Shown here piece by piece: positions 1,209 to 24,526 of a DNA stretch of 31,587 nucleotides. Position 1 is the stretch's first letter. Every line of letters starts with the position of its first letter. Made by a program: the position numbers and the translations under genes. The stretch covers positions 1-31,587 of IMG/VR virus record IMGVR_UViG_3300027977_002218; one strand, given 5' to 3'. Under the pieces are notes generated by a model. That model saw only the letters and a list, made by a program, of their open reading frames with translations, was not told the DNA's origin and searched no databases. Origin of the DNA: a virus.

Positions 1209-1216
1209 TAAGACCT

Positions 1217-1245
1217 ATTGTATTATGATTTAGGGTTAGTCTCAA
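1217..1245 (-). promoter_or_regulatory. sigma70-like promoter for gene 43
   Basis: On the minus strand TTGAGA (1240-1245), a 17-nt spacer and TACAAT (1217-1222) are followed by 8 nt and then the GTG of the polymerase gene. Each hexamer matches the consensus at five of six positions. Usual geometry puts the transcript start about 2 nt before the GTG. The -10 and most of the spacer lie at or just past the stop of the upstream glycosyltransferase gene. Confidence 0.5.
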
Positions 1246-2482
1246 GCAAATACTTACGATCTGGGGAACCAAACGGGGTAAAATATGCCTCATGGTGTTT
1301 CATGAGATTCTTTTCGTCTTCTAACCAGAAGTTATCGGCATATGCTCGAGACTTTTTGCAGTAATCAGCATAAACCGACTGATTCTTTGTAGCAGTTTTA
1401 ATACAGTCAATGAACTCGTTAGCATTAGAGTATTTTAAGAAGGCATCCTTGTATGTACACATATCTGGGCACACACAAGGAATACCTAGTGCGGCAGCTT
1501 CAAGCAACTTAATATTGCTCTTGGCTCTATTAAAATTATTATCCTGGAGAGCTGCAAAAGTTAATTGAGTACCAGATTCAGCCATAGTGCCTGGAAACTC
1601 GGGTAATGGAGCCCATTGATGAAACTCCATCTCTCCTCGATCAATAAAGGGTTTTAAAGGCAGTGGGTAACTTCCGTAGAACTTCCACCTAAAGTCTTTT
1701 CTTGTCTTAATAATAGCAGGTACCACCATTTCAAAGTCATCCTTCTGTCCAGTTCTGTTTGTGACATCAACGTGAGTACCTGAAGCAAAAATAGATACAA
1801 CAGGTTTCTTTTTATTCTTTTCGAAATTTTTAACCAATTCTCCGAGATTATAATACCGATCAAACCACCATTTAAGTAGGTAATTGGGTATTACAGTGGA
1901 TTTTTTGACACCCATCTTTTCGTCAAAATAATCTTTCATAAAATCACAAGTAACTGTAACCTCATCACACATATCGAGAATTTCTAAAATAGAATTACGA
2001 ATCTCATCTGCAACAAAAGCATCTTTATTTCTATTAAAGTCAGGAATATCTTCTCTAAAAACAATATCGTCAATTTCATAGATAATTTTAAACCCGCCGT
2101 CTGGCATTTGACGAGATATCTCTTTAAGCATCTTAACAAAGTCTCTTTGTATAGGTGTAGCCTGACGCTGAATTTTAACTGCTTTTACTCCAGCATAAAA
2201 TCTCGGATCGAGCACCATTGTAGTTAGTTCTAAAAGAACTGCCTTCTGATAAAGATTCAGCATTAGATTAGGAGCCATACAGCGATACCAAGAACATCCG
2301 CCGTAATCTGCAAGATAGTTAATAGCTCTTGATAACCCTTGTCCTGGTATTTCAGGTGGTGGTAAATCTCCATTAGGTCTAGCATGAAGCACTTGAGTAG
2401 TAGAGGGTATAAAAGGTGGTAAACCGATAGGTGCACCCATATTATTAGAAATACCAGATTGCTGGATAATGAATTGAGACAT
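1223..2482 (-). CDS. GT-B fold glycosyltransferase (group 1-like)
   Basis: Putative glycosyltransferase of 419 residues; donor and acceptor are unknown. The N-terminal part has GGCSWYR (61-67), resembling the acceptor-side start of many phage and bacterial group 1 enzymes. The C-terminal half reads like a GT4-type donor domain, with SIFASGTHVDV and then KLLEAAALGIPCV, which fits the E-x7-E-type donor site. The frame is open 20 codons further upstream, but that would run into gene 46. The ATG at 2482 lies 4 nt after the gene 46 stop and begins MSQFIIQQ, so I use it. It sits between genes 46 and 43, outside the main glycan block but probably functionally related. Confidence 0.75.
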   Translation of the reverse strand: MSQFIIQQSGISNNMGAPIGLPPFIPSTTQVLHARPNGDLPPPEIPGQGLSRAINYLADYGGCSWYRCMAPNLMLNLYQKAVLLELTTMVLDPRFYAGVKAVKIQRQATPIQRDFVKMLKEISRQMPDGGFKIIYEIDDIVFREDIPDFNRNKDAFVADEIRNSILEILDMCDEVTVTCDFMKDYFDEKMGVKKSTVIPNYLLKWWFDRYYNLGELVKNFEKNKKKPVVSIFASGTHVDVTNRTGQKDDFEMVVPAIIKTRKDFRWKFYGSYPLPLKPFIDRGEMEFHQWAPLPEFPGTMAESGTQLTFAALQDNNFNRAKSNIKLLEAAALGIPCVCPDMCTYKDAFLKYSNANEFIDCIKTATKNQSVYADYCKKSRAYADNFWLEDEKNLMKHHEAYFTPFGSPDRKYLLETNPKS

Positions 2483-2486
2483 AAAG

Positions 2487-4283
2487 CTATGATAATAAAT
2501 AGGTAAAGTTATTACGTTTTTCCAGAAATATTGTGTTATCAATTTTCTCTGTAATAGCTGTACCTCGATGAGTGATAATGTAGCAATTTTCGTTATGCTT
2601 TAAAGCTCTTTCTCGAAGAACGTCTAAAACTAATTCTACCCCTTTATCATCTAAAGAAGAATCTAAAAGTTCGTCATAAAAAATAGTCGAGAAGTGTACA
2701 TCCCCTTGCATTCTACGAATATCTAAGAATGAGAACAAACAAGCTAAATCAATTCTCTTACGCTCCCCACCAGAGAAGTTAAAGTAGGATTTATGTTCTC
2801 CTTTTTCATCAGTAATTTGCTCATCAAAAAACTCATCGAATTGACACAAACAGTTAGCATGAAGTTTCTCGAGATAGTATGCCATTCTTCCATTAAGAAC
2901 GGCTAAGATCTTTTTAACAATGTATGACTTAACGCCCTCTTCAGATACTACAAACTTAACACACTCGAGAACATTACATTCATGATCTAATTTTTCTAGA
3001 TCAGCCTTTCCAGTTTTAAGCTTTTGTTCGAGCTCTTTTACAACATTTTCTAAAGCTTCATTTGTTTGTCCTTTAACCTCTTCAATTTCTTTTAATATTT
3101 CTTGAATATTTTCGTTGATAAGACTGATCTTAGTTTCAGTATTTTTATTATTGTTTAAGATATCTTTTACAATATTTTTATTATTTTGGATATCATTTAT
3201 CTCTTTTTCTTTTTTAGCCTGAAAGGTGTTTACTTCATCAAGGGACTTTTGAGCAATACTAAGCTCTTTTGTTAGAACTTTTAATTTATTATTAAGCTCT
3301 TTTTTATTAGATTCTTTATGTTTAAGATCATCGTCAGAGTACGCTCTCTTACAGGTTGTACAAATAGCTCCAATCTTTTCAATTTCATTTAGCTGATCTT
3401 TAATATGACTAATTTTACTTTTAACATCAGCTAAAACTTGATAAGCGGTTTTATAAAGTTTTTGCGACTCTTGTAGTTCTTCATTGCATTGCTCAAGTTT
3501 GATATCAAGCTTTTCTATGACGTCATCAGGAAGAACTTTAATACTCTTTTTTAATTCATCAATTTTAACTTTACTCTCTTCAATACGTTTTGTTAAAGTT
3601 TCAATCTTTAATTTTTTTGTTTCTTCAAAAGCATCAAGCTGTTCTTTATTAAATTTGTATCCCTTTTCAATGCCCTCTACTTTAGTAAATAGCACTTCAT
3701 AATCTTTTTTAAGTATGTTATGCTCTTCTCTAGCTTTCGAAAGCATATCTGAAAAGACTTCAAGACTAAGAATACTCTCGATAAACTTTCTCTTATCAAT
3801 TTTAGACTGTGCCATAAAAGGTACAGTAGTATTGATAGTCATTATGACTGAGTTTTGAAATATTTTACCATTGGACATAACGAGTCTTTGAATATACTCG
3901 TTTGTCTTAGCCATAGTGGAACGGGTTATATCTTCCCCGTTTTTTGTCATATGACATTTAGTGGGACCAATAGTACGAATAATACAATATTGAGATAAAC
4001 CGTTACCGTTTTCAATGTCAAAGTCTAAGATTACTTCACATTTTTTCTTAGTAAAAGAGTTTACAATAAGGTCTTTTGGGAGTTCCCGAATTGTAGTACC
4101 AAACAATGCAAAGTACAGTGCATCAGCAATAGTTGATTTGCCAACACCATTCTTAGAGTCCTCTTTGTCATAGTTAATACCTGTTATAACATTAACCCCA
4201 GTTTGAAAATTAATAGTTACTGGTGATTCTCCGACAGAGAGAAAGTTCTTAATAGTAAGAGATTTAAAATTTACTAAACGCAC
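2487..4283 (-). CDS. 46: Recombination endonuclease subunit gp46 (Rad50/SbcC-like ATPase)
   Basis: SMC-like ATPase that pairs with the gp47 nuclease to resect DNA ends for recombination-dependent replication. Walker A is GVGKST (46-51) after an extended loop (TGINYDKEDSKN), longer than in T4. A long Lys/Glu-rich coiled coil surrounds a zinc hook CTTC with C308 and C311. The ABC signature FSGGERKRID and Walker B IFYDELLDSSLD lie near the C-terminus. The 598-residue length is close to T4 gp46. The start is GTG at 4283, because an in-frame TAA lies two codons upstream; AAGGA directly abuts it, which is too close for a normal Shine-Dalgarno. Its partner gene 47 lies about 10 kb upstream in the same direction, separated by the glycan block. 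Confidence 0.95.
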   Translation of the reverse strand: MRLVNFKSLTIKNFLSVGESPVTINFQTGVNVITGINYDKEDSKNGVGKSTIADALYFALFGTTIRELPKDLIVNSFTKKKCEVILDFDIENGNGLSQYCIIRTIGPTKCHMTKNGEDITRSTMAKTNEYIQRLVMSNGKIFQNSVIMTINTTVPFMAQSKIDKRKFIESILSLEVFSDMLSKAREEHNILKKDYEVLFTKVEGIEKGYKFNKEQLDAFEETKKLKIETLTKRIEESKVKIDELKKSIKVLPDDVIEKLDIKLEQCNEELQESQKLYKTAYQVLADVKSKISHIKDQLNEIEKIGAICTTCKRAYSDDDLKHKESNKKELNNKLKVLTKELSIAQKSLDEVNTFQAKKEKEINDIQNNKNIVKDILNNNKNTETKISLINENIQEILKEIEEVKGQTNEALENVVKELEQKLKTGKADLEKLDHECNVLECVKFVVSEEGVKSYIVKKILAVLNGRMAYYLEKLHANCLCQFDEFFDEQITDEKGEHKSYFNFSGGERKRIDLACLFSFLDIRRMQGDVHFSTIFYDELLDSSLDDKGVELVLDVLRERALKHNENCYIITHRGTAITEKIDNTIFLEKRNNFTYLLS

Positions 4284-4290
4284 TCCTTAT

Positions 4291-4323: not shown

Positions 4324-4893
4324 TTATTTAGTAGCAACAATATCCCATCCAATAGTTTGGACTTGATAGCCTAGATCAGTTAATTTATTAATACAGTTTT
4401 GAAGCTTTGTTCCATGCCCGGTAAATCGAGTTCCTTCAGCATGTAAATGTTCAAAGTATAAATACTGTATTTGAACTTTATTAAAGTCAATACTATTAAC
4501 AATATCAACATCCATACCTTCAGCGTCAATGTAAAGCCGATCAATATGTATGAGTTCGTGTTGTTTAAAGAGTGCGGTTAAATTAATTGCAGGGGTTTCA
4601 ATAGCGGTATATGTGCTTTTAAAACATGAACTGTTGATAAAATCAATAGATGTAGTGCACTCTTCAGGAGTTGTTTCAGATACATAAAAGGTAACAGTAG
4701 CTCTATCATCAGTTACAATGGCATAATGAAGTACTTTTACTTTAGGTAAGTCATTATATGCTTCTCTACACAGTTCGACGTATTTTTTATTCCCATCGAT
4801 AAGTATTGCTTTTTGAATAACACTGTAATGTTCTGTTATAAATGCTTGAACATGATCCTGTCCTTTACAACAGCCAATTTGAACTATATTCAT
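4324..4893 (-). CDS. FkbM-family SAM-dependent methyltransferase
   Basis: Predicted methyltransferase of 189 residues. The SAM-binding loop is VQIGCCKGQD (4-13), with an acidic residue after strand 2 (LIDGN, 31-35). The FkbM signature appears as IDAEGMDVD (122-130), equivalent to the usual DxEGxExxVL region. FkbM enzymes O-methylate sugars or small molecules, and the neighbourhood of glycosyltransferases suggests a sugar hydroxyl as acceptor. It is the last gene of the glycan block before gene 46 and starts 4 nt after the stop of the next methyltransferase, so the two are probably co-transcribed. Shorter than most FkbM proteins. The target is not visible. Confidence 0.75.
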   Translation of the reverse strand: MNIVQIGCCKGQDHVQAFITEHYSVIQKAILIDGNKKYVELCREAYNDLPKVKVLHYAIVTDDRATVTFYVSETTPEECTTSIDFINSSCFKSTYTAIETPAINLTALFKQHELIHIDRLYIDAEGMDVDIVNSIDFNKVQIQYLYFEHLHAEGTRFTGHGTKLQNCINKLTDLGYQVQTIGWDIVATK

Positions 4894-4897
4894 ACAT

Positions 4898-5512
4898 TTA
4901 CAATGTACAAACTAAAGTAGGCGGATCGGTAATTCGATACTGTTTCCAATTTTCATCCCACTCAGTATTAAATTCTTCCCATAGCATGTTATGTGTATCT
5001 GGCCAGGTGCGTTGTAAATAGTCATAATCATGTACAATAAAACATTTGGTCTGTTTTTTAAAGTGATTTAAACTTTTATTTCTGTCTGACCAATCTCCTT
5101 GATCAACAAAAATTAAATCGTAGTTGTGTTTAAAATCTTCCATATCGTATTTGGAGTCATAACTTGACATATAGTATGGTTTAACATTTTGTACATCTTT
5201 ATAATAGAGAGGGAAGCATTGATCTGACCATACTTTATCTGTTTCAATGCTATCAATGAGAATGTTTTGATTATTTTTTGCAAAATAAGATAAAATAGCA
5301 CTGCTACCCTTACCCATACCTAGCTCTAATATACGAGCAGTCGACTGTTTACAAAGTTCAGTACATTTTTTAAATAAAAAAGGTACGTGGGTATAATATG
5401 CAAAATATTGCACATCGTGTCTGTGTTTTTCGTCAGCAAGAAAATGCAAATCTGATAACTCATTAATTTGTGCAATTTCTTTATATATTTGTTCTATTTC
5501 TTGTAGTTGCAT
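4898..5512 (-). CDS. Class I SAM-dependent methyltransferase
   Basis: A 204-residue Rossmann-fold methyltransferase. Motif I is ARILELGMGKGS (59-70); a later acidic strand LIFVDQGDWSD and a following IVHDYDYL resemble class I enzymes that bind a metal-assisted hydroxyl acceptor. The N-terminal 50 residues are helical and lack a signal peptide. It is transcribed with the FkbM gene 4 nt downstream. A promoter-like sequence precedes it after the 128-nt gap at 5513-5640, so it may start a two-gene transcription unit. Substrate unknown; a sugar acceptor is inferred only from context. Confidence 0.7.
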   Translation of the reverse strand: MQLQEIEQIYKEIAQINELSDLHFLADEKHRHDVQYFAYYTHVPFLFKKCTELCKQSTARILELGMGKGSSAILSYFAKNNQNILIDSIETDKVWSDQCFPLYYKDVQNVKPYYMSSYDSKYDMEDFKHNYDLIFVDQGDWSDRNKSLNHFKKQTKCFIVHDYDYLQRTWPDTHNMLWEEFNTEWDENWKQYRITDPPTLVCTL

Positions 5513-5520
5513 GTTGTAAA

Positions 5521-5551
5521 ATTATAATATTGTTTTTGTTAAACTTTTCAA
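5521..5551 (-). promoter_or_regulatory. Promoter in the 5513-5640 gap
   Basis: Minus strand TTGAAA (5546-5551) with TATTAT (5524-5529) at 16-nt spacing; an overlapping TATAAT (5521-5526) ends exactly 8 nt before the ATG at 5512. Either could serve as the -10. This is the only real gap in the glycan block; apart from the promoter I see only weak AT-rich stem-loops in it. Confidence 0.4.
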
Positions 5552-5640
5552 TGTAGGAAGAGACATCTCATACTTTATCGTTTCTTAAGTAAAAATGCTA
5601 CTTTACATGTCATTGTTTAATATTCTTAACTTAATAAGCT

Positions 5641-6474
5641 TTAATCTGAATCTGTAAAACGTTTCTTCCAACTCTCTATATAAAGATCAAGTACGTTCCA
5701 ATCTACCTTATTACATTTGTCTATTTGTCTATTCAAATATTCAATTGTAATATTATTCCAATCTTTACAAAATACAATAGGTAAATGGGCGAACTGCCTA
5801 AAGCATTCATGATCTTCAACTATAGGTACAGAACGTAAATACAAACACTCCCATATTCTATGACTATCTACACCATTACCGTGCGGGCAAATAGTAAAAT
5901 AGCTCTTAGATATATCTCTCCAATACTCATCGTTAGGCTTTTTACCCCACATAAAAATACCATTTTTACTTGTGATTTGATCACAAATAATACGCTTAGA
6001 AAAATTCGTACCTGAATCAAAATTTTTAAATACTAAATTATTTTTAATATTATTTTCACTACGAATATTGCTGATGAGCTGTTGATTGCCGTGAGGCCAC
6101 TGACTATTGGCAATACCTATTGGTAATGAATGTAATTTAGGGTGATTTATGTATCTGTTTTGACAAAACCATTTTTTAATATTAGAAGATTCAATATATT
6201 TTAAATGTTGCTCATTAATACCATCATCTGAATTATGGGTGACAATAATAGTGCCTGGCTGTAAATGTAATAAAAATTTGTTCATAAAATCATGAACAAA
6301 GTGAGAGTAGATAAAAATTGTTTTATACTGTTTAACCTCTTCAACGGGAGTATCTGCTATACGTAAAAGTTTTTGTCCTTTATGTCTAAGCTGATTTTCA
6401 ATAATCCAATTGCTTTCAGCAAAAAAACTTACTTCAGTTAAATTTTGAAACTCTTCACCTGATATGATATTCAT
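5641..6474 (-). CDS. Exostosin-like (GT47 / RXYLT1-type) glycosyltransferase
   Basis: A 277-residue protein whose C-terminal third carries the exostosin-type signature ICPHGNGVDSHRIWE (195-209) followed by LYLRSVPIV. In this family the region contributes to nucleotide-sugar binding, with a conserved Glu ending the R-x-x-E motif. The N-terminal part (to about 120) has alternating strands and helices, as expected for the first Rossmann-like half of a GT-B fold. No signal peptide or membrane segment is present, so it should act in the host cytoplasm. It starts 3 nt after the upstream methyltransferase stop. The sugar transferred is unknown. Confidence 0.65.
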   Translation of the reverse strand: MNIISGEEFQNLTEVSFFAESNWIIENQLRHKGQKLLRIADTPVEEVKQYKTIFIYSHFVHDFMNKFLLHLQPGTIIVTHNSDDGINEQHLKYIESSNIKKWFCQNRYINHPKLHSLPIGIANSQWPHGNQQLISNIRSENNIKNNLVFKNFDSGTNFSKRIICDQITSKNGIFMWGKKPNDEYWRDISKSYFTICPHGNGVDSHRIWECLYLRSVPIVEDHECFRQFAHLPIVFCKDWNNITIEYLNRQIDKCNKVDWNVLDLYIESWKKRFTDSD

Positions 6475-6477
6475 TTT

Positions 6478-6969
6478 TTAATTAAAAGCTACAACAGAAA
6501 AAGCCCAATATAAATCTCTTTCGCTATGAATAATGTCTTTATATTTTAATTTATGTAAAACATCTTTAATATGAGACGGAAAAAATAAATGATAATGCTT
6601 TCTATTATTTTGCGGGTTCCAATATTCCATATCAGGGTGCGGTAGATATAAAAATAAAACCCCGTCTTTTTTAAGATGCTTTTTCCAATATTCTAAAGCT
6701 CCGACATAATCCGCTAAATGTTCAAGAGTGTGACTACTAAAAATGTAATCGTATTTTTTGGGGGGTAGATTGAACGCATCATATTCATCGTCAATAACAA
6801 TATTGATTGGCTTAGCACCAGGTAGTGTCCACCTATTAAAACCACCTATATCTAATCCTTCACCGGTACAAAAGTGTTGGGCATAAGGTAGTATAAACGA
6901 GCATGCATTTCCTTTCTTAATATAAGAGGGATAAAGATTATTGTTATATTTAAATATATTTTTGTTCAT
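6478..6969 (-). CDS. SAM-dependent methyltransferase (type 11-like), short
   Basis: A 163-residue methyltransferase. Motif I is degenerate, GLDIGGFNRW (38-47), while the motif before the acceptor site, SSHTLEHL (78-85), is typical of the methyltransferase 11 group. The following KKDGVLFLYLPHP fits the usual strand after the 'L-K-P-G-G' turn. It lies in a tight run of leftward genes (3 nt and 6 nt gaps). Because motif I lacks the usual GxGxG spacing, reduced SAM affinity or a specialised binding loop is possible. Substrate unknown. Confidence 0.65.
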   Translation of the reverse strand: MNKNIFKYNNNLYPSYIKKGNACSFILPYAQHFCTGEGLDIGGFNRWTLPGAKPINIVIDDEYDAFNLPPKKYDYIFSSHTLEHLADYVGALEYWKKHLKKDGVLFLYLPHPDMEYWNPQNNRKHYHLFFPSHIKDVLHKLKYKDIIHSERDLYWAFSVVAFN

Positions 6970-6975
6970 AATAAT

Positions 6976-7590
6976 TTATTGCTTTTTAAACACTGCTGTT
7001 AATATATTTTTATTTTCACCTTTACGTATAGTATCTTCAATTTCAGTAAAATTTAAACAACTAAAACCTATTTTTTTAAAGAAAGATATTAAAGATTTAT
7101 CATTAAAATGATGTAAATGTTCATTCGGTCGTCTGTGTTTCCAATTAGTGAACCATTCATCTGAATGGTAGTGACACCAGGGTAAACTTATGTAGATGTA
7201 ATTACATTTAATATTACATATTTCGTAAATATCTTTAAAATGTTCTAACACGTCAAAAAATGTAACAACGTCGTAGTGTTTGTCTGTTAAAGATGTTACT
7301 TGTTTAGTACCTTCGGGTGGAGGGAGTGTTGTAATGTCGTATCCATAGCACTCAGGTATAATTTCTTTACATACTTTTAAAAAATCTCCTGAGCCGTATC
7401 CTACATCTAAAATAGATGTAGGGATATGGCCTATACTACCTATTAGGTATCCTAGTCTAAGATAGCCCATACTAAGGGATTTAGGATACTTATAATAACT
7501 ATTTTTAATATAATCCGCATCATAGGTAATAGTATTAAAATTTAGTTGATGAATAACACCACATTCATCTATTTTATAATTATCTAGCAT
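6976..7590 (-). CDS. SAM-dependent methyltransferase (type 23-like)
   Basis: A 204-residue class I methyltransferase with a clear motif I, ILDVGYGSGDF (60-70), and the type 11/23 hallmark FFDVLEHF. The region after this (YIYISLPWCHY) and the closing IGFSCLNFTEIED agree with a complete fold. Proteins of this group often accompany sugar biosynthesis clusters and methylate sugar or nucleotide-sugar carbons, which fits the neighbours. A strong promoter-like sequence with an overlapping palindrome lies directly upstream, so this gene probably starts its own transcript, continuing into 6478 and 5641. Confidence 0.72.
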   Translation of the reverse strand: MLDNYKIDECGVIHQLNFNTITYDADYIKNSYYKYPKSLSMGYLRLGYLIGSIGHIPTSILDVGYGSGDFLKVCKEIIPECYGYDITTLPPPEGTKQVTSLTDKHYDVVTFFDVLEHFKDIYEICNIKCNYIYISLPWCHYHSDEWFTNWKHRRPNEHLHHFNDKSLISFFKKIGFSCLNFTEIEDTIRKGENKNILTAVFKKQ

Positions 7591-7598
7591 AAAAGAGT

Positions 7599-7626
7599 AT
7601 TATATGATACTATCATAACAAATCAA
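7599..7626 (-). promoter_or_regulatory. sigma70-like promoter with overlapping palindrome
   Basis: Minus strand TTGATT (7621-7626), 16-nt spacer, TATAAT (7599-7604), 8 nt, ATG at 7590. This is the same architecture as upstream of queE. A perfect 7-bp inverted repeat with a 1-nt centre (7603-7617) fills the spacer and touches the -10, so it could be an operator. Confidence 0.5.
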
Positions 7627-7627
7627 A

Positions 7628-8353
7628 TTATTTTATTTCAATGTAATTTGTATTTGAGAATGTGTATGTATTGTTTATATGTGGCAAATATCTTGTAGGT
7701 GTAATAATATCTATTTTAACATCACTATCCGTTTGATATTTTATTGTTGATGCTAAAACTGATTGACCTGAAAACAGAGCTACAAATTGTTTAGCAGATG
7801 CTATAACGTCTGAATATGTTTTTAAATCATTAATATCTATTGTAGATATATTTTCATTTTTACAAAAATCTTTACTGTAGCCTATTTTAGAATTAGTAAT
7901 ATAAACTATGTCTTGTTTTTTAATGCCAAGGCTTGCTATAGAGTTTTCTATTTTTTGAAGATCATATTCGTGCTGAATACTGTGTGCTGTAAAATTAATT
8001 AAAACTTTATCTTTATATTCTTCAATATACCTTGGTGTATAATAAATTTTAGGATATTCATAATCTGTATCAAACCCGTACACTTTTTGTAAAACTTGTA
8101 TGTGATTAACAGAATTATTTTCAAATTGTCTGCATCTATCTAACCACGATAAGTCTGTAAAATCTATTTTTTCTTTTTCAATATACGGATTTAATTCCCA
8201 TACAAAATTATTAATGTCCTCGTTTCTATAAGCATTGTGTTTAGATAGATAACATTTTATGTTATTTTGAGAGCATAACTCTGGTATGATGGAGTGTGCT
8301 AAATTATCTCCTAAACCTCCCCAGGGTTGATATATAACTATATTCCGTTCCAT
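7628..8353 (-). CDS. Putative glycosyltransferase (GT9/GT-B-like)
   Basis: A 241-residue protein that starts IVIYQPWGGLGDNLAHS, the GGLGDN loop (12-17) being reminiscent of heptosyltransferase-type GT9 enzymes. The second half has FVALFSGQSVLAST, where GT9 proteins keep a G-x-S/T donor loop. No transmembrane segment. Its start overlaps the end of the GT11 gene by 16 bp, implying coupled translation. The assignment rests on fold-level resemblance and position among glycosyltransferases, not on complete motifs, so a different sugar-related role is possible. Confidence 0.5.
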   Translation of the reverse strand: MERNIVIYQPWGGLGDNLAHSIIPELCSQNNIKCYLSKHNAYRNEDINNFVWELNPYIEKEKIDFTDLSWLDRCRQFENNSVNHIQVLQKVYGFDTDYEYPKIYYTPRYIEEYKDKVLINFTAHSIQHEYDLQKIENSIASLGIKKQDIVYITNSKIGYSKDFCKNENISTIDINDLKTYSDVIASAKQFVALFSGQSVLASTIKYQTDSDVKIDIITPTRYLPHINNTYTFSNTNYIEIK

Positions 8354-9024
8354 TCTGGTAAATATATAAACGGATGAAAACTTGTACAGTGCTTAGTGGG
8401 ATAAAAAATATTTTTAGCATTACTTAAAAATGCAATCCACCAACTAAATGTACCATTACTAATGATAATATTATTACATTTTCTACCAAAATTAATTGTG
8501 TTAATTGCAGTATCTTCGTATATGCTCATATTATACTCTTTAACTAATGTCTGTATAAAATTACTAGTAGGTGAATCACTTGAAATAAAGATTTTATCAT
8601 ATTTTATTTTAGATATACACTCTCTGTAATAATCTATACCCGGGTTAAAACGCTCAGCGTCATCTAATCTTACATGAATAAACAGATCGTTATTTTCATG
8701 TTTATCTAAATTAAACAAAGATTTAATATCTTGTTTATATGTTTTTATAAAATCTATATTTTGAAAGAATCCTTCGTATAAAATACCGTGATTCAGCTCA
8801 TTATTATATTGAAGTAGCGGCATGAGATGTTCATCATTATAATAAACATATGTCTCATTTATCTTCGTACCAGAATAAAAATTAAAGTTAAGAACTTTAC
8901 ATTCTTCAGTACTAAAGTATTGATGTACTTTATAATTGTATTTTTTTGCTAATAAAGCTAAACCAACATTTTGAAATATGTGATTACCTAAACGGGCACC
9001 TTGAGTTTGAATTAATCTTAACAT
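8338..9024 (-). CDS. Alpha-1,2-fucosyltransferase-like, GT11 family
   Basis: A 228-residue GT11-type enzyme. Family marks are GARLGNHIFQ (9-18, the usual GGLGNQxFQ), IHVRLDD (116-122, equivalent to the HxRRxD motif that binds GDP-fucose) and ISNGTFSWW (188-196). GT11 proteins transfer fucose from GDP-fucose to galactose in O-antigens and related glycans. The second Arg of HxRRxD is replaced by Leu, so donor preference may differ. It is shorter than typical bacterial members (about 280-300). It overlaps the downstream gene by 16 bp and follows a methyltransferase gene by 2 nt. Confidence 0.75.
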   Translation of the reverse strand: MLRLIQTQGARLGNHIFQNVGLALLAKKYNYKVHQYFSTEECKVLNFNFYSGTKINETYVYYNDEHLMPLLQYNNELNHGILYEGFFQNIDFIKTYKQDIKSLFNLDKHENNDLFIHVRLDDAERFNPGIDYYRECISKIKYDKIFISSDSPTSNFIQTLVKEYNMSIYEDTAINTINFGRKCNNIIISNGTFSWWIAFLSNAKNIFYPTKHCTSFHPFIYLPEWNGI

Positions 9025-9026
9025 TT

Positions 9027-9629
9027 TTATTGTTTAATAAAACATGTTTGTCTGCCTTTAAATAGTAATTTATACTTCTTTTCTAGAAGAAAAGGTATTA
9101 GTAATTTACCTTTACCTCCTAGAGATTCCTCATCATTGTGAAAACCTTTTTCAAAAGTAAAACCTACATCAGTATCGTCAATTAAAATAATAGCATCGTC
9201 ATTAAGTTTATTTTCAGCAACTTCAAACGCTTCAAGATGTTTTTCGGCATGATTAGGTAATTCAACATCCCATGCATCTAGATATAAAAAATCAATTTTA
9301 GAAGTAAAATCTTTTAAAAATTTTATACCATCTCCATTATAAACGTTAGACTGCTTATTTAAATTATACTTTTTAAGTTCTTTTAATGTTAACTTAGAAC
9401 ATTCAATATCGATATCAATAGTATGAAACTCTTTAGCCGATCGAGCTAAAAGTAAAGAACTATGACCATCATTACAGCATTCATAATTGTATTCATCTAA
9501 TGGATGATCGCATGGTTTTCTCATCGACCCTATCTCAACAATAATAGGCTCTTTTACTGTAAGAAAACTTAAAGCTTTTTTAAGAAAAGTATAAGGTCTT
9601 TTTCGAATAGATTGATTAACATTATACAT
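9027..9629 (-). CDS. Class I SAM-dependent methyltransferase
   Basis: A 200-residue protein with motif I IVEIGSMRKP (30-39), in which the glycine loop is altered, then an acidic strand (FHTIDIDIE), KIDFLYLDAWDVE, and IILIDDTDVG. The last two are placed like the metal- or acceptor-binding acidic strands of the methyltransferase 24 group. Context suggests a sugar substrate. A TTGAAA/TAAAAT promoter-like sequence overlaps the end of the upstream gene and stops 6 nt before the ATG. Substrate unknown. Confidence 0.65.
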   Translation of the reverse strand: MYNVNQSIRKRPYTFLKKALSFLTVKEPIIVEIGSMRKPCDHPLDEYNYECCNDGHSSLLLARSAKEFHTIDIDIECSKLTLKELKKYNLNKQSNVYNGDGIKFLKDFTSKIDFLYLDAWDVELPNHAEKHLEAFEVAENKLNDDAIILIDDTDVGFTFEKGFHNDEESLGGKGKLLIPFLLEKKYKLLFKGRQTCFIKQ

Positions 9630-9635
9630 AATAAT

Positions 9636-9663
9636 ATTTTATATTTTATATAATGTATTTCAA
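9636..9663 (-). promoter_or_regulatory. Promoter upstream of the 9027-9629 gene
   Basis: Minus strand TTGAAA (9658-9663), 16-nt spacer, TAAAAT (9636-9641), 6 nt, ATG. The sequence is extremely AT-rich, so a chance match is possible; the spacing agrees with other promoters in the window. Confidence 0.3.
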
Positions 9664-10541
9664 CATATAAAATTTTCTAATTTTTTAGAATGTATATGCA
9701 AATTGCATATAGGTATCTTGTTATCGTTATATATAACGTATGGAACTTTATCAAAAATAACTTTAATTTTATTGTGAATAATTGCAGCTCCTGAATAATG
9801 AACCTCATCGGCATAACCAGGTGGTTGATTATGGTTTGTACCACCTAAATGCTGGCCGTAAGACGCTCCATCAAATAGTGTACCAGTTTTATCAAAATTA
9901 TCATTGCTAGGTTCAAACGGCAAAGTAGGTAAATAATCAATTGTGCCAGGCTTATAATTGTATATGATATCAATTAATTGCATCTCTGATAAATGGGGAT
10001 ACTTTGTTGCCTGCATTACATGACTGTAACTTTTTGTTAATAACTGATCTAAACATTTATTAAATTTCGTAAAATACTCTAAACTATTACAATAAACAAA
10101 ACCAGCTGAGGCTATCTGATATCCGACCCGTGTAAAATAAATTGAAGGGGGTAAACTGTCTAAATGCTTAAAATCAGAGTATACTAGATTGTCATACTCC
10201 AAGTGAATAAACTTCTCAATATTATTATCTCTACAATATGTATAGAGTACAAACAATCTAAAAAGAGAAGTATACCAGAACGGACACCAAACAAGAGGTG
10301 TATAATACTCTTTACACTTTCTATAAAATTCAATTGATTCTTCTCTTATATAATTGTTGATATAATCATTAGATAAAATAATAGGCTCGGTATTCAGGTA
10401 TTTTTTTGTTTGATCTATGCTTATCTGAGCATAGGGAGGTATTTGTTCAAATACCCATTGATTAGGAGTAAATTCGTGACCATATGGTAATTTTTTATAG
10501 TCAATATGTACGTATATAGCTTTCAAAGTTAAATTTTCCAA
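9660..10541 (-). CDS. Putative GT-A fold glycosyltransferase
   Basis: A 293-residue protein. LEYDNLV (114-120) is a plausible DxD-like metal/nucleotide-sugar site after a helix carrying R and Y residues, as in GT-A enzymes that act on surface glycans. A later aromatic, glycine-rich region (ASYGQHLGG, NQPPGYADE) could be the acceptor lid. There is no signal peptide. The start overlaps the end of the upstream two-domain glycosyltransferase by 13 bp. I do not recognise the exact family. Function is inferred from the DxD-like motif and from the neighbours. Confidence 0.5.
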   Translation of the reverse strand: MENLTLKAIYVHIDYKKLPYGHEFTPNQWVFEQIPPYAQISIDQTKKYLNTEPIILSNDYINNYIREESIEFYRKCKEYYTPLVWCPFWYTSLFRLFVLYTYCRDNNIEKFIHLEYDNLVYSDFKHLDSLPPSIYFTRVGYQIASAGFVYCNSLEYFTKFNKCLDQLLTKSYSHVMQATKYPHLSEMQLIDIIYNYKPGTIDYLPTLPFEPSNDNFDKTGTLFDGASYGQHLGGTNHNQPPGYADEVHYSGAAIIHNKIKVIFDKVPYVIYNDNKIPICNLHIHSKKLENFIC

Positions 10542-12190
10542 GAGTGTATAGATAGTATAGATTTATCTGTTTTGCATGCATTTGCAATTGTGTTTTTAAT
10601 ATCTACATCGTTCCAATCTTGTCCTTGATTGAGGTCTCTACCGTCATTAATTTGTTCAAGATGTTTAAACGTATACAAATTAGGGTAAAATTCGTTTACA
10701 TAATTAGCATATGTTTCATATTCTGAAAAATGGTATACTGCATTAAGTCTAGTGCCTATTTTTAGTAAAAGATCTTTAGCTGTAGTACATCCCGTACGAC
10801 TTAAAAAGCTTTTTGTAATATTTTTATTAAAAAGTCCTAAATCCCCAATACCGGTATGGGTAAGAGATTTATTAAGATTAAATGTATTTTTATTAAAATG
10901 AAAATATGGAAAATGGTTTTGTTTCCATCCGTAGTACCAAATAGGTTTTTCATTTATAAATAGGTTTATTTTTTTTAAAATAATAGTATCACTGTCTAAA
11001 GCAAAATAGTATTCTGATATACATTGCTCAAAAAACATTTTTAAGAATTGCTGATAAGTCCAATTAGGTCTAAAAGATATAAACGATTTATCTGGTACAT
11101 CTAATACGTCTCTGTCATTTATATAAATTATCTTACTATCACTTACCTTGTTTTTAATGCTATGAGGTGAACATACAAATATATTTTTTGAATCTAAATT
11201 GTTTAAAGCATACTCTATAACATATTTTAGTTTAAGTTCATCTTTTTCTGCTACAGGTATAAACAAATCGTAATTGGTATTATCTGTTACTTTATTTTTA
11301 ACATAATCTTTATTATACAGTTTGGGTAATGTTTTAAAACTACCAAAGTATTGTTTTTCTATTTCTTCTTCATTATTAAATGGTTGATACCATTTACAAT
11401 TATTAACTGTAGAGCGTTTAAGTAAAATGTTTTGTACATAGTTAAACCAAAGATGTCCTATGATAATATTACGTTTAAATACATCTTGATTGTAATAATT
11501 TTCCACGGAATCTTGACTTGATACACTTTGATGTTCGATATGGAAGCAGACCGGGGGGAGTTTATTAATATTTTTACACTTACATAATAAGTTAAACATT
11601 GTAAAGAAATATGTATCCCAGTAAAAGCTGCCTAAGATTAAATCTTCAAAATTATTGCGCACCTGTAACCAGGTTTCTTTTTTAACTAAAAAAGCATCAA
11701 AACCATGAACAGAGTACGATTCTAATACAGGTTCTTGAGATAGGGAATCTATATCTTCAATATGCATTCTAGTGATGGGGTAACACTCTACCCCATCTTC
11801 AAGTATTTTTAATACGCGATCAGATAAAATAATATCATTATTTAAAAATAAGAAATAGTCACAATCAGTTTGAGACAAAACATCAAATATTTCTTTTACT
11901 GATGGTAACTCTTTTTGATTGTTGTCAATTTCTCTTTTCTTTAAGTTATATTCTATTTTTAAACCTTCGTGCTGAAAGTAATTATGTATAAGTGTATTAG
12001 ACTTAATAGTTAACTTATTAAGTGTAGTGAAATTATCGTACTTTATATTTTCAGTATTAAAGCATATATTGTATAGTTGAATATTAGGGTTTTTGCTTTT
12101 AATCTTTAAAAGACTTTCAATACAAAAACGCTCTCTCTTTACGAGATCTTCATATTTTTTAAAACCATTTATACCAATAGCAATTTTCAT
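10529..12190 (-). CDS. Two-domain putative glycosyltransferase
   Basis: At 553 residues this is the largest gene of the block. It appears to hold two GT-A-like units. The first has YFLFLNNDIIL (112-122), placing an acidic metal site at about N117-D119. The second begins near residue 308 (DLFIPVAEKDEL) and has YFALDSDTIIL with D399-S-D401, a good DxD. Between them are aromatic-rich helices. Two-domain enzymes of this type can add two sugars in turn, but that is inference. Its ATG overlaps the stop of the upstream glycosyltransferase in an ATGA arrangement (12187-12190). Confidence 0.6.
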   Translation of the reverse strand: MKIAIGINGFKKYEDLVKRERFCIESLLKIKSKNPNIQLYNICFNTENIKYDNFTTLNKLTIKSNTLIHNYFQHEGLKIEYNLKKREIDNNQKELPSVKEIFDVLSQTDCDYFLFLNNDIILSDRVLKILEDGVECYPITRMHIEDIDSLSQEPVLESYSVHGFDAFLVKKETWLQVRNNFEDLILGSFYWDTYFFTMFNLLCKCKNINKLPPVCFHIEHQSVSSQDSVENYYNQDVFKRNIIIGHLWFNYVQNILLKRSTVNNCKWYQPFNNEEEIEKQYFGSFKTLPKLYNKDYVKNKVTDNTNYDLFIPVAEKDELKLKYVIEYALNNLDSKNIFVCSPHSIKNKVSDSKIIYINDRDVLDVPDKSFISFRPNWTYQQFLKMFFEQCISEYYFALDSDTIILKKINLFINEKPIWYYGWKQNHFPYFHFNKNTFNLNKSLTHTGIGDLGLFNKNITKSFLSRTGCTTAKDLLLKIGTRLNAVYHFSEYETYANYVNEFYPNLYTFKHLEQINDGRDLNQGQDWNDVDIKNTIANACKTDKSILSIHSWKI

Positions 12191-12960
12191 GACTTAAATT
12201 TTTTAAGTTTAGTTATAACCCAATCTTTATTAACGTCTGGTATTTGATTGACCATTACACCGTGCTTTTTCACAAAATATTCCCATTCTTTTTGGATTCT
12301 TTGTTCCCGAGATCCATCTGGACGATCGCCCTGAAGTCTTGAGACAGCATTCGGATTATTCATTATTAGTTCATCTGAACCTGTAATATCAGCAAACCAC
12401 CAAAAAGGTGCTGCATAGTCTTGTCGGGACTCTCTATAAGCTAAATCAATATCAAAAGGATCTCTAAAATTTGTATCATACAGACCGGTCTTTTCATAAC
12501 AAGTTTTGTGGTGATAGGTAAACTCATTGCACATATTTTTATAAAAAGATACACTGATATCGTTTTTATATTCAACAGTTAGACGGGGCGTACGTTTACC
12601 AGGCTCACCTGATTCCCAAGAAGTAGAAACAAAAGAAAAATATTTTAACCCTGATTCTTTTGAAGCTAGAATGTATTTCTCAAAAATATCTGGTGATTTT
12701 AGTAACATATCATCTTCGATGATAAAAATATGTTCGCAGTTTCTTTGAAGTAAAAAGTTAATACAGTCATTTCTACAAACAGATGGATAGACGTTTTCAG
12801 TATGTTGTATCCAATTACCGTTGTAATTTTCTATATATTTGTTTCCACCGTTAACAGTAACAAGTGTATTAATTTTATTGAACGGTAGTGTTTCGTGTAA
12901 TTTTTTGTAATAGGATTCTGAATTATAGGTAACTATACCTACGCCAATTTTTTCTTTCAT
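12187..12960 (-). CDS. GT2-like glycosyltransferase, paralogue of 13631-14416
   Basis: A 257-residue GT-A enzyme. N-terminal IGVGIVTYNSESY is the usual nucleotide-binding strand; IIEDDMLLK has the DxD-like acids E82-D83-D84; FWWFADITGSDE near residue 190 is shared with the paralogue downstream of gene 47. The frame is open 10 codons upstream, but ATG 12960 overlaps the preceding stop as ATGA and gives the same N-terminus as the paralogue, so I use it. Probably transfers a sugar to a glycan in the host cytoplasm. Confidence 0.72.
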   Translation of the reverse strand: MKEKIGVGIVTYNSESYYKKLHETLPFNKINTLVTVNGGNKYIENYNGNWIQHTENVYPSVCRNDCINFLLQRNCEHIFIIEDDMLLKSPDIFEKYILASKESGLKYFSFVSTSWESGEPGKRTPRLTVEYKNDISVSFYKNMCNEFTYHHKTCYEKTGLYDTNFRDPFDIDLAYRESRQDYAAPFWWFADITGSDELIMNNPNAVSRLQGDRPDGSREQRIQKEWEYFVKKHGVMVNQIPDVNKDWVITKLKKFKS

Positions 12961-13634
12961 TGTTTTTGGGCTAAAACCCAACCTATACATGGTCGGTTTA
13001 TGTCATTGTTAAGTTTTATTTGTGTATAATCAGGCCAGGACAAATATGTATATATATGTTTAATATAATCTTCATTGCCCCATTGCCCTGAAACCAATAT
13101 CTTAAAATTGTTTTTAATTAGTAAGTATATAATATACTGCACTGTAATACCAGTGAAAAAATAAAAGGGCTCACCGTGAGGTATGTTTATTACTGGAAAG
13201 TTACTATAAAAATAACCACCGGTTATTAAATGTTTTTTAATATTTTTAATAGATTCTTCAATTTCCATTAAGTGTTCAAAAATTTGATTTGCAAAGCAAA
13301 AATCAAAATCTTTATCTAAATTACTATCATGTAAATTTTCTATATCATGTTTATCATTAATCCAATAATCGCAGTCAACCCATTTATCTTTAGGGAACAT
13401 TTTACATTCTGGATCATATAAACCACCAAAGCTTAATAATTTTTTTGATGTTAAATTAAATTGCTTTACGTATTGTGAAAAATAAAAGGTAGCAGGCAGC
13501 CGAGCTGCGTCTTTATTTTTCCAAAAATTTAAATCTGTTATTTTGTTTTTAACAAAATTAAAATCAAACTCTTTACAAAAGTTTAAATTTTGTTGATGTA
13601 TATTATAAACTGTTTGTACATTTATTTTGTTCAT
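12957..13634 (-). CDS. SAM-dependent methyltransferase-like protein
   Basis: A 225-residue protein lying between two paralogous glycosyltransferases and overlapping both by 4 bp. Motif I is unusual, LLSFGGLYDPE (66-76), without a full GxGxG loop, but DFCFANQIFEHLMEIE (111-126) is the characteristic methyltransferase 11 segment and GGYFYSNFPV follows where the product strand is expected. Likely a class I methyltransferase acting on a sugar or glycan intermediate. Binding of SAM cannot be confirmed from the loop alone. Confidence 0.6.
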   Translation of the reverse strand: MNKINVQTVYNIHQQNLNFCKEFDFNFVKNKITDLNFWKNKDAARLPATFYFSQYVKQFNLTSKKLLSFGGLYDPECKMFPKDKWVDCDYWINDKHDIENLHDSNLDKDFDFCFANQIFEHLMEIEESIKNIKKHLITGGYFYSNFPVINIPHGEPFYFFTGITVQYIIYLLIKNNFKILVSGQWGNEDYIKHIYTYLSWPDYTQIKLNNDINRPCIGWVLAQKQ

Positions 13635-14416
13635 AATTTTGGTTTTATTTTTTTTAGATAAATCATAGTTTCTTCTTTTGTAGATGTTATAGCGTGAGGA
13701 TTCCGGACGTCAAAACCAAATTTTTTAGCAAAGTGATCTGCTGCTTTATGAAAATTTTCAATCCATTTTTGATCTTTACGAATTTCACTACCAGAATGAC
13801 CTTTATCTATTTCTTCTATATAATTGCTACTATCTGCAATGTCAGCAAACCAACGAAACGGGGGATGCATACCCGCTTTAATGATAGCAGCTGTATGATC
13901 AACATGTTCCATAGCATTATAATAAAATTCATCCATTAAACCTATTTCTTCAATACATTTTTTTGTATACATTGAAAAAGCCCCATATACGTTGGGATAT
14001 AAACATATAGACACATTTGGTGAATAGTCAATTTTTAAACGAATTGCAGGTGTACCGTCGGGTTTATAGTTATCTACACCGTGAAACGCAAAATTGAAAT
14101 GCTGAATACCTGATAACTTTGAAGCGTTTATATATTTTTCAAAAACTATTTTATCCTTTATAATAATATCATCCTCTAAAAGAAAAATATAGTCATTATC
14201 TTTAAGTAGATTTAGTGCTTGGTTTTTTGCCTTACCAACACCCTGTTTCGAGGGAGTATTGTTATGTACAAAAAACTTACCTCCGTCTAATTGTTTTTCT
14301 CCATCGTTAACAATAACAATATTACTCGTAGAAATTCCAACAAGAGACTTGATTAATTTTTTAAGATAATCAGGTCTATCACACGTAATAATACCTATTC
14401 CAATTTTAGTGCTCAT
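13631..14416 (-). CDS. GT2-like glycosyltransferase
   Basis: A 261-residue GT-A enzyme: IGIGIITCDRPDYL at the N-terminus, VNDGE at about 37-40 and FLLEDDIIIK with E81-D82-D83 as the metal/nucleotide-sugar site. FRWFADIADSS is shared with the second GT2 gene of the block. It is the first gene of the glycan block and overlaps the end of gene 47 by 11 bp, so the block is joined to the recombination operon without a promoter gap. Sugar and acceptor are unknown. Confidence 0.75.
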   Translation of the reverse strand: MSTKIGIGIITCDRPDYLKKLIKSLVGISTSNIVIVNDGEKQLDGGKFFVHNNTPSKQGVGKAKNQALNLLKDNDYIFLLEDDIIIKDKIVFEKYINASKLSGIQHFNFAFHGVDNYKPDGTPAIRLKIDYSPNVSICLYPNVYGAFSMYTKKCIEEIGLMDEFYYNAMEHVDHTAAIIKAGMHPPFRWFADIADSSNYIEEIDKGHSGSEIRKDQKWIENFHKAADHFAKKFGFDVRNPHAITSTKEETMIYLKKIKPKL

Positions 14417-15467
14417 TTACAGTTTGAGAAATTCTATAAAGATCAATACATTTATTCAGAATATCTTTCTTAGGCACTGGTGTATCTAAAAGATTAACAA
14501 ACTCATGCAAGGCAGTATCAATATCTATAGATACTTCGTTAAGCTCAGTAGCAGATAACTGTACAGATTCGAAAATATTAAAATCAGTTCGAACATGTCG
14601 GGGTTTATACTGATTAAACTTAGAAAGCATTAAATTTAAAACCTGCTCGTTAACATTTCTATCAATACAAAGACTCACAAAGTTATTTTGTAATTCATCA
14701 GAAACGTTTTCTAAGTTAATTTTATTATCAAGAAGATCTGATATTTTAATTTTTTTATGTTTTGGTGTTGTATGATTCTCTACTAGCTCAAGTGAAAGGT
14801 TATCAGTATCTAAAATAGTAAAACCTTTTGTTTGTTCTCTATCTCCAAAATCTAATTCATAAGGTGAACCGAGATAGATAATTGATTTACCATTTGTATA
14901 CTTTCTATGGTCTCGGCAATGAAAATGCCCGGTAATAACAAGCTTGGATTTATCCAATAACGACTCACTCTCAAACCCATGATCACATACTTTGTGAGAG
15001 CTCATTTTAAAATTAAGAATCTCAAAATGACCTACAATAATATCACATAAAGGAATCTCTTGTAAATCTATTCCCCAAGGACAGAATACAAATTTTTTGT
15101 TGTTTATTGTTTGTGCAACTAATTCTTGATACACAGTGACATTTTTATACCCATTAAGAATAGATATTGAGTTAATATCTGACTTATCTTTGTAATAACA
15201 GTCATGATTACCAGTTATAGTTACAATGTTGTAGTTAGAAAGTATATCAAAGAATTTACGAGCACAATGAATAGTATTAACTCCAATCTCATGACGATTG
15301 TGAAAAATATCTCCAGCTATAATAATATCCTTGATATATCTAAGCTTTAACTCTTGATCAAGCCATCGAGCAAAGTCTAAAGCTATTTCATGCCAAGTAT
15401 GAGCGTTCTGATGCACGCCTAAGTGTATATCAGAAATACAAGCTACTTTGTTCGAACTAAAATGCAT
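14406..15467 (-). CDS. 47: Recombination endonuclease subunit gp47 (Mre11/SbcD-like)
   Basis: Metallophosphoesterase nuclease subunit that works with gp46. The catalytic motifs are all present: DIH (D13, H15), GDIFHNR (D53), GNHD (86-89), VGHFE and ITGHFHCRD. The length (353) is close to T4 gp47 (339). It overlaps the gene 55 stop by 1 bp (TGATG arrangement), placing it in the leftward operon uvsY-uvsW-55-47. In T4 and relatives genes 47 and 46 are close together; here thirteen glycan genes lie between them. Confidence 0.95.
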   Translation of the reverse strand: MHFSSNKVACISDIHLGVHQNAHTWHEIALDFARWLDQELKLRYIKDIIIAGDIFHNRHEIGVNTIHCARKFFDILSNYNIVTITGNHDCYYKDKSDINSISILNGYKNVTVYQELVAQTINNKKFVFCPWGIDLQEIPLCDIIVGHFEILNFKMSSHKVCDHGFESESLLDKSKLVITGHFHCRDHRKYTNGKSIIYLGSPYELDFGDREQTKGFTILDTDNLSLELVENHTTPKHKKIKISDLLDNKINLENVSDELQNNFVSLCIDRNVNEQVLNLMLSKFNQYKPRHVRTDFNIFESVQLSATELNEVSIDIDTALHEFVNLLDTPVPKKDILNKCIDLYRISQTVNEH

Positions 15468-16036
15468 CAGGCGTTCTCTTGACGGTACGAATCGTCATAA
15501 TCACTATCAAACTTTGTATTTTTCTGAGAAGGGATTTGACCTGACTCAGTTAAAAGGGTATATACCTCAGTTTGATAACGATGAATAGTGTCATGCTCTT
15601 TCTTTTCTTTTTTAATACGATTCTGAAAAGCTCTATAAGCTACCTTTGTAAAATAAGAGAAAGGGTTATAACCAGACTTACACTTAAAGCGCTGACGGGT
15701 TACTGCTGTTATCATCTTTATAATAGCATCTCCGATCATTTCTTCTTTATAAGAATAGTTAATAAAATTCTGGGCATAACCAAGACGGGTAGCAATCTTT
15801 TGAATCATGTCAGCTAATTCAGAAGGTATATCTTTACCTCCCTGTTCGTAATACTGGATAATAAAATTTTCCATCTCGATAGGATCGACGTAATTAGGTT
15901 TTAACTCCTCTTTAGTTCTCCTTACACGTTTCTTTTTTTTCTTTGGTTCAGAATCCCATAAAGAAGTAAAGTCCTCCTCATTCGGATCATTAACAAATTC
16001 TTCATCTTTTATTTTTCTTTTACGAGGAAACGGCAT
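15467..16036 (-). CDS. 55: Late-transcription sigma factor, T4 gp55-like
   Basis: Divergent sigma factor that directs host RNA polymerase to T4-type late promoters. The segment NFINYSYKEEMIGDAI and the following KSGYNPFSYFTKVAYRAFQNRI match the sigma region 2-like core of gp55. The N-terminus is highly basic (KKKKKRVRRTKEE). ATG 16036 gives 189 residues, close to T4 gp55 (185). The frame can start 12 codons earlier at a TTG that overlaps the uvsW stop, but that adds a hydrophobic tail with no family counterpart. Candidate late promoters (NNTAAATA) on the right side of the window would be its targets. Confidence 0.88.
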   Translation of the reverse strand: MPFPRKRKIKDEEFVNDPNEEDFTSLWDSEPKKKKKRVRRTKEELKPNYVDPIEMENFIIQYYEQGGKDIPSELADMIQKIATRLGYAQNFINYSYKEEMIGDAIIKMITAVTRQRFKCKSGYNPFSYFTKVAYRAFQNRIKKEKKEHDTIHRYQTEVYTLLTESGQIPSQKNTKFDSDYDDSYRQENA

Positions 16037-17989: not shown

Positions 17990-18130
17990 ATGCAAACCTT
18001 TAAGCAGTATCTTTTAGAAAAAGAAGAAAAACGTAGATTAGATCCAAAATGTTGGAAAGGTTATCGCAAATCTGGTACTAAACTTAAAGATGGTACTAGA
18101 GTAAATAAGTGTATAAAGGTAAACAAATGA
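17990..18130 (+). CDS. Small basic phage protein with capsid-targeting-like N-terminus
   Basis: A 46-residue protein. It starts MQTFKQYLLE, much like the T4 internal-protein leader MKTYQEFIAE, ending in L-L-E, a legal (L/I)xE site for a T4 gp21-type prohead protease. The rest, DPKCWKGYRKSGTKLKDGTRVNKC, resembles a short Cys/Gly/Lys motif common at the ends of marine phage proteins; no biochemical function is known to me. The stop overlaps the next ATG (ATGA), so translation is probably coupled. Assigned as real because of motif conservation, coupling and the late-type box 6 nt upstream. Confidence 0.7.
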   Translation: MQTFKQYLLEKEEKRRLDPKCWKGYRKSGTKLKDGTRVNKCIKVNK

Positions 18131-23615: not shown

Positions 23616-23796
23616 AGTAATTACAGCTAAATTTGAACAAGTATGGCCTAAAGACCGTAAGATAGGTTTTTGGGAATTTTTATCTTTAGTGTCTGTCTTG
23701 ATTTTTGCCTTACTTTATCTATTATTGTTTAATCCTATTGGGTGGGTTGCTATTGTAATCTGTTCATTACTTTTTAAATTTATTATTGGTGCTTAA
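23599..23796 (+). CDS. Small single- or double-pass membrane protein
   Basis: A 65-residue protein with a soluble N-terminus (KKDLEVITAKFEQVWPKDRK) and hydrophobic segments at about 24-43 and 46-62 separated by NPIGW. The frame is open to ATG 23590, but ATG 23599 (MKKDLEV) gives a more natural start. It overlaps the end of queD by 17 bp and ends 4 bp inside the convergent endonuclease gene. Role unknown; inner-membrane location is inferred from hydrophobicity only. Confidence 0.55.
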   Translation: MKKDLEVITAKFEQVWPKDRKIGFWEFLSLVSVLIFALLYLLLFNPIGWVAIVICSLLFKFIIGA

Positions 23797-24518: not shown

Positions 24519-24526
24519 TTATAGGT

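Follow-up and report, generated by a model that had tools for sequence, protein, structure and literature searches.

Clusters of glycan genes have been known in T4-like phages since the cyanophage genomes, and they raise the question of whether such genes are functional and what they act on. In the cyanophages P-SSM2, S-SM2, and S-SSM7, lipopolysaccharide (LPS)/glycan clusters lie near hli03 or phoH (Sullivan 2010, PMC3037559); that study also raised the possibility that such clusters are stuffer DNA, which it could not exclude (PMC3037559). The host recognition cluster of the pelagimyophages (PMC7029224) is, like the locus described here, hypervariable, rich in glycosyltransferase (GT) genes, and carried by aquatic T4-like phages. 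The present locus lies in a 31.6-kb virus contig, IMG/VR record IMGVR_UViG_3300027977_002218, the whole of which (31,587 nucleotides) is referred to below as the window. Here 13 minus-strand open reading frames (ORFs) at 4324-14416 separate the genes for the two nuclease subunits gp47 and gp46 (Table 1). Related phages carry islands of glycan genes at this same fixed site, whole cassettes are replaced between near-identical phages and shared between distant ones, and the cargo is under purifying selection. The reading favored here, with a probability of roughly 0.5, takes the island as a hypervariable cassette for glycan assembly that occupies one site, from the end of gp47 to the start of gp46, in a large clade of uncultured T4-like phages, and a virion protein as the likeliest acceptor of its methylated glycan.

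Table 1. Genes of the island and its borders in the window, with the evidence for each assignment (SAM, S-adenosylmethionine; pLDDT, predicted local distance difference test).
Gene	Assignment	Position	Strand	Evidence
gp46-adjacent GT	Clade GT, GT-B, group 1/4-like	1223..2542	-	PHROG_7162 1e-20; Pfam Glyco_trans_1_2 0.002
gp46	SbcC-like nuclease subunit, downstream island border	2487..4283	-	PHROG_77 E 8e-99
M1	FkbM-type methyltransferase, last cargo gene	4324..4893	-	Pfam Methyltransf_21 9e-9; NCBIfam fkbM_fam 7e-7, under its cut-off
M2	Probable class I SAM methyltransferase	4898..5512	-	Motif ILELGMGKGSS; weak profile match to another cargo cluster, 51.7% probability
G3	GT47/RXYLT1-type GT	5641..6474	-	Pfam RXYLT1_C 1e-7, Exostosin_GT47 5e-5
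M4	Class I SAM methyltransferase	6478..6969	-	Pfam Methyltransf_23 1e-8
M5	Class I SAM methyltransferase	6976..7590	-	Pfam Methyltransf_23 4e-18; PHROG_6564 2e-15
X6	Probable GT-B (GT9-like) GT, from motifs	7628..8353	-	GGLGDNL and SGxxxLA motifs kept in 3 homologues
G7	GT11-type (fucosyltransferase-like) GT	8338..9024	-	Pfam Glyco_transf_11 1e-6; PHROG_2644 8e-13
M8	Class I SAM methyltransferase, MT24/spermine-synthase-like fold	9027..9629	-	Pfam 6e-8 and 8e-6; PHROG_24975 8e-21
X9	GT-A-fold GT	9660..10541	-	AlphaFold pLDDT 92; VIA Z 12.6 UGGT catalytic domain, LARGE1; Z 12.0 PBCV-1 capsid GT
G10	Two GT-A-like domains	10529..12190	-	AlphaFold pLDDT 73; Foldseek heparosan synthase 2 E 1e-10, also chondroitin polymerase K4CP
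G11	GT, G13 paralogue	12187..12990	-	PHROG_2456 6e-15; family alignment with G13
M12	Class I SAM methyltransferase	12957..13634	-	Pfam Methyltransf_11 4e-5
G13	GT2-type GT-A GT, first cargo gene	13631..14416	-	Pfam Glycos_transf_2 8e-5; PHROG_2456 6e-23; PDB profile GalT1 1e-4
gp47	SbcD-like nuclease subunit, upstream island border	14406..15467	-	PHROG_100 E 8e-63; Pfam Metallophos

The turnover of the site is most apparent when close relatives are compared. At gp46 identities of 90% or more, just 20% of cargo genes are held in common at 50% identity or above. Two relatives, L082 and L097, are each 95% identical to the window in gp46 and 96% identical in gp47; two of the 13 cargo genes recur in L082 (at 44 and 34% identity) and one in L097 (at 45%). 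Nucleotide alignment of the window with L082 extends over positions 590-4287 and 14360-15585 at 90-91%, with nothing between them. Homology to the nearest relative stops at 4287, four bases ahead of the gp46 start, and on the gp47 side it breaks at 14360, just inside the first cargo gene, which overlaps gp47. The window and L082 differ by the replacement of a whole cassette with sharp borders, so that different cargo lies between near-identical flanks. The converse is seen among more distant phages. L034, with a gp46 that is 52% identical to that of the window, has counterparts of G13 and G11 at 82-87% identity, and L097 and L098 (gp46 identity 39%) have ten cargo genes in common, one of them at 83%. 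Such high cargo identity across distant cores argues for a movement of cassettes, in whole or in part, from one lineage to another.

Analysis of the junction in relatives shows how widely the site is used. A scan with gp47 yielded 80 loci, for which longer stretches were fetched, and the distance from gp47 to gp46 could be measured at 60 junctions. These fall into three size classes: adjacent (2-23 bp), one gene (780-835 bp), and island (4.5-16 kb). On a gp47 tree of 49 rows each class is confined to one side of a single branch and requires a single change, although the tree is unrooted, so that the direction of change (gain or loss of the island) is not readable from it. The island is present in all 25 rows on its side of the tree, down to a gp47 identity of 42%, and the site is therefore old; lineages on the other side have one GT at the site or none. 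The lone gene of the one-gene junctions is, by family alignment, a distant relative of G13 and G11. In a second sample, which was anchored on the GT gene next to gp46, is limited to nearer relatives, and partly overlaps the contigs of the first, all 11 closed junctions are islands, and at 24 further junctions cargo-like sequence runs past the contig end. Genes 46 and 47 are known to lie close together in T4-like phages, as the preliminary description of the locus, made from the sequence of the window, pointed out, and in isolates they are adjacent (BUCT-ZZ01) or nearly so, with one 93-aa gene between them in P-SSM2, two small genes in S-CRM01, and a 2-oxoglutarate (2OG)-oxygenase gene in HTVC008M. 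The possibility that the HTVC008M gene is homologous to the lone GT was rejected, since it encodes a 2OG-Fe(II) oxygenase with no match to the G13 profile.

The layout of the island is that of a compact module. Its 13 genes are read from the same strand as uvsY, uvsW, gp55, gp47, and gp46, in the order uvsY-uvsW-gp55-gp47-(13 genes)-gp46-GT. Neighboring genes within it are spaced by -34 to +40 nt, apart from one 128-nt gap, and the first cargo gene and gp47 have 11 nt in common, so that the common direction and the overlap into gene 47 noted earlier are both confirmed. The genome is T4-like: the window has PHROG matches to gp46, gp47, gp55, UvsW, and UvsY, and relatives G005, G017, and G022 have a Pfam match to gp23. 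No match to the island was found among phage isolates by megablast, and none to G13 and M8 by tblastn. The T4 late-promoter motif TATAAATA was matched 5 times, with 8 matches expected.

The preliminary count of seven GTs and six methyltransferases holds for 12 of the 13 genes, with support from Pfam or PHROG for nine, from predicted fold for two (X9 and G10), and from a weak profile match for one (M2); X6 is the lone cargo ORF whose assignment comes from motifs. Family searches support four of the GTs (G3, G7, G11, and G13), and Pfam supports five of the six methyltransferases. M2 had no match in the family searches, and X6 had none in Pfam, PHROG, or NCBIfam. PDB profile searches with G10, X9, and the GT next to gp46 gave no sequence match, and the assignments of G10 and X9 come from predicted folds. 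The predicted structure of G10, which has medium model confidence, suggests that this protein is probably a bifunctional GT. The gene content supports the earlier idea of a module, a coherent one, for glycan assembly and methylation, which interrupts the gp47-gp46 pair.

A similar content is found in other islands. In a sample of 27 islands, some of them near-copies, 359 cargo ORFs are present. Pfam searches with 203 cargo representatives identified GT2, GT10, GT11, GT25, GT47, GT61, and other families together with FkbM and MT24 methyltransferases, and some islands also carry GDP-mannose dehydratase/epimerase, sugar nucleotidyltransferases, and thiamine pyrophosphate (TPP) and haloacid dehalogenase (HAD) enzymes. 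The islands are runs of GT and sugar-modifying genes, nearly all on the same strand, in T4-like genomes. The G13/G11 family is present in all 27 islands, the G10 family in 19, and the G3 family in 11; G13, G11, and G10, then X9 and G3, occur in the same order in many islands, and the downstream genes are the most variable.

Several features of individual islands may be mentioned separately. Three cargo ORFs, at 5251-5892 (+) in L083, 11691-12332 (-) in L092, and 13286-13852 (-) in L076, lie opposite to the other cargo and are possibly recent insertions or spurious. In L098, L099, L075, L100, and L101 the first gene of the island belongs to the G13 family and codes for a protein with a changed EDD (DxD-type) motif, for example LHSN, which suggests that the GT retained at this border is inactive or altered. 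On the contig of L004, a second run of five genes (L111, 10422-19485) has weak similarity (25-34%) to cargo and lies far from the 47-46 site, so that a second glycan cluster may exist in at least one relative.

A further GT gene, which overlaps the end of gp46 and lies outside the range of the preliminary description, is retained at island, single-gene, and cargo-free junctions alike. All of the 11 clade records tested have it, whereas P-SSM2 and S-SM2 lack it, and at least 560 relatives of it were found in the scan. A genome scan with its profile revealed no bacterial relative and hence no clue to the host. Its retention suggests that it performs a basic glycosylation step independent of the island.

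These observations are consistent with a mechanism in which cytoplasmic GTs and O-methyltransferases would build, on an acceptor that is soluble, an oligosaccharide capped with methyl groups, with some phages supplying their own nucleoside diphosphate (NDP)-sugar enzymes for this purpose. The acceptor would most likely be a virion protein (that is, protein O-glycosylation of virion components), and the GT next to gp46 would perhaps add an early sugar. Recombination within the conserved flanks would exchange entire cassettes, and the outcome would be phages with nearly the same core and different surface sugars.

A recent acquisition of the island by this phage and a lack of function are both improbable. 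In the window, the island genes have a mean GC of 29.3%, which is 4.7 points lower than the 33.9% of the other genes, as might be expected if this phage alone had recently acquired them as a single block from a bacterial capsule locus. The preliminary description had likewise taken the island as markedly AT-rich and acquired. Its hand counts (9 GC in one 60-nt line of the island, 25 in one of uvsW) are exact, but the first is unrepresentative, since lines with nine or fewer GC number 4 of 526 in the window, and the two genes that flank the island, gp46 and gp47, have 31% GC themselves. Over 24 islands, cargo GC differs from that of gp46 plus gp47 by a mean of -0.7 points (Wilcoxon p = 0.095; for the difference in GC3, p = 0.027). 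Because cargo GC is so close to that of gp46 and gp47, AT-richness is no evidence for recent acquisition. Moreover, the first cargo genes belong to a phage-clade family, and the island is at the same site in all close and many distant relatives. A recent block acquisition is already contradicted by these results and must be judged very improbable; what survives of the idea of an acquired module is exchange between phages, at a site that has carried an island throughout a deep clade. The comparison of junctions proposed earlier gave a divided answer: the same place and an ordinary composition, as for an ancestral site, and mostly different genes, as for fast-turning content. Quick turnover and a size that ranges from 4.5 to 16 kb could also be explained by stuffer DNA, or by transient functionless cargo that fills the head. 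Such cargo would not be expected to show a median dN/dS of 0.08 and a maximum of 0.18 (78 ortholog pairs, many with dS values above 1, which makes individual ratios rough), an ORF coverage of ~98-101% with 356 of 359 ORFs on one strand, or glycan genes always, at a single site, in a deep clade, and this is the least probable of the explanations considered.

Three acceptors had been named for the glycan: the virion, phage DNA, and the host surface. DNA is the least likely of them, because no PF00303 protein (dCMP/dUMP hydroxymethylase or thymidylate synthase), and so no homologue of the gp42 of T4-type DNA glucosylation, was found in eight long, if fragmentary, clade records of 54-227 kb, in a search that matched the T4 gp42 control; seven GTs and six methyltransferases are also far above the needs of base glucosylation. 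Given that DNA glycosylation is classically a trait of T4-like phages (RB69, Thanatos), and that a QueD-like (PTPS) protein and a QueE-like ORF in the window make some base modification conceivable, a cassette that glycosylates phage DNA against restriction, in the manner of the T4 alpha- and beta-glucosyltransferases, deserves mention; it is nevertheless improbable. (A Tet_JBP search matched no control and has no bearing on this point.) Virion protein and host surface are inseparable by sequence alone, and the main rival is a cassette that alters the LPS or capsule of the infected host, with export by host machinery, such that the receptor is hidden from competing phages or loss of progeny on debris is avoided. 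A host-surface role was proposed by the authors for the pelagimyophage GTs (PMC7029224). Several points speak for it or against a virion acceptor: the GT25, GT11, and GT10 families of the cargo, like the heptose genes of the cyanophage clusters, are typical of LPS and capsule loci; the substrates of peripheral cytoplasmic GTs can also be lipid A-core or lipid-linked intermediates of the host, with export left to the host, so that the lack of a phage flippase is compatible with this role; and all clade records are fragments, so that families not found may lie elsewhere. Nonetheless, the records and islands searched do not resemble a Wzx/Wzy-type locus, with its initiating phosphotransferase, Wzx-type flippase, and multi-pass proteins. 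Bac_transf (PF02397) and Polysacc_synt (PF01943) are absent from 11 clade records (fragments), with bacterial controls matched and other flippase and initiating-transferase families not searched, and a simple hydropathy scan predicted no more than one membrane segment in any of the 359 ORFs. In addition, the GT next to gp46 is kept even without an island, and this is somewhat easier to reconcile with an unchanging acceptor of the phage than with a host surface that varies. Modification of the host surface is therefore regarded as possible, if on balance rather doubtful, and glycosylation of a virion protein as the most likely assignment and the best fit, with gp23 as a candidate acceptor: Gly/Ser/Thr/Asn-rich stretches in the N-terminal half of gp23 of G017 are suggestive in this respect.

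Extending virion glycosylation to the biology of the clade leads to a more tentative proposal, held at less than even odds, of a "glycotype" system. A lytic clade would reserve one site, between its own genes for the recombination nuclease, for exchange; whole cassettes would be swapped there between phages, and virions with much the same core would differ in their methylated sugar coats, in a process like capsule switching in bacteria. Since the cassettes are exchanged as a unit between flanks that are 95% identical, natural pairs with the same core and different cassettes are available, and these provide a direct way to probe the role of phage sugars in host range, defense evasion, and phage competition.

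Further features were noted elsewhere in the window. An 81-aa ORF at 18109-18354 (+) contains a stretch, FSGDNYAPGDARVPKSLY, that resembles the N-terminal region of gp23 in relatives (NSYPSGDTYATGDARLPKVLIP in G017) and is followed by a basic tail; it is possibly a head protein. Next to it, at 18357-18770 (+), is a SegE-type GIY-YIG endonuclease (Pfam 2e-32). An AT-rich ORF at 23793-24449 (-; 26.6% GC), on the strand opposite to its neighbors, has a GIY-YIG-like start and no Pfam match. The QueD-like protein (23169-23615, +; PTPS, Pfam 4e-16) and the QueE-like radical-SAM ORF (24491-25279, +) could belong to a preQ0 pathway for 7-deazaguanine in DNA or tRNA.

Among the closest described systems are the cyanophage clusters, which are likewise same-strand runs of GT, methyltransferase, and NDP-sugar genes in T4-like phages and whose GT11 genes are 23-27% identical to G7. 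However, the 47-46 interval of P-SSM2 is free of glycan genes, and neither P-SSM2 nor S-SM2 shares the clade's GT beside gp46. The pelagimyophage GTs are located with tail-fibre genes, and HTVC008M has its single oxygenase gene at the junction; in contrast to an hli03/phoH or tail-fibre location, all closed island junctions place the cargo between gp47 and gp46. Precedents for the favored reading come from three further systems. In cluster O mycobacteriophages, GTs encoded beside an O-methyltransferase gene are stated to modify the capsid and the tail tube (Freeman 2023, cited in PMC11600133), although the cluster described there is small (three GTs, one methyltransferase) and the phages are unrelated siphoviruses. 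The capsid glycan of PBCV-1 is built by mostly soluble virus-encoded GTs, with methyltransferases capping it (A064R, A061L; PMC9614988), and the X9 model matches the GT domain of A064R, a fold match common to many GT-A enzymes; PBCV-1 is, however, a eukaryotic virus, and its enzymes do not form one swappable cassette. The variable flagellin glycosylation islands, with GTs, FkbM/SAM methyltransferases, and sugar-biosynthesis genes (PMC4875605), resemble the phage island in having variable cargo at one site, and theirs glycosylates a protein, but they are bacterial, lie beside the flagellin gene, and have 1-3 GTs each. In the open-access literature (most subscription papers were outside the search) no description was found of a glycan cluster fixed between gp47 and gp46, or of whole-cassette exchange there. 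Thus, glycan clusters at other sites in T4-like phages are known, and the fixed gp47-gp46 site, together with the exchange of whole cassettes at it, appears to be new.

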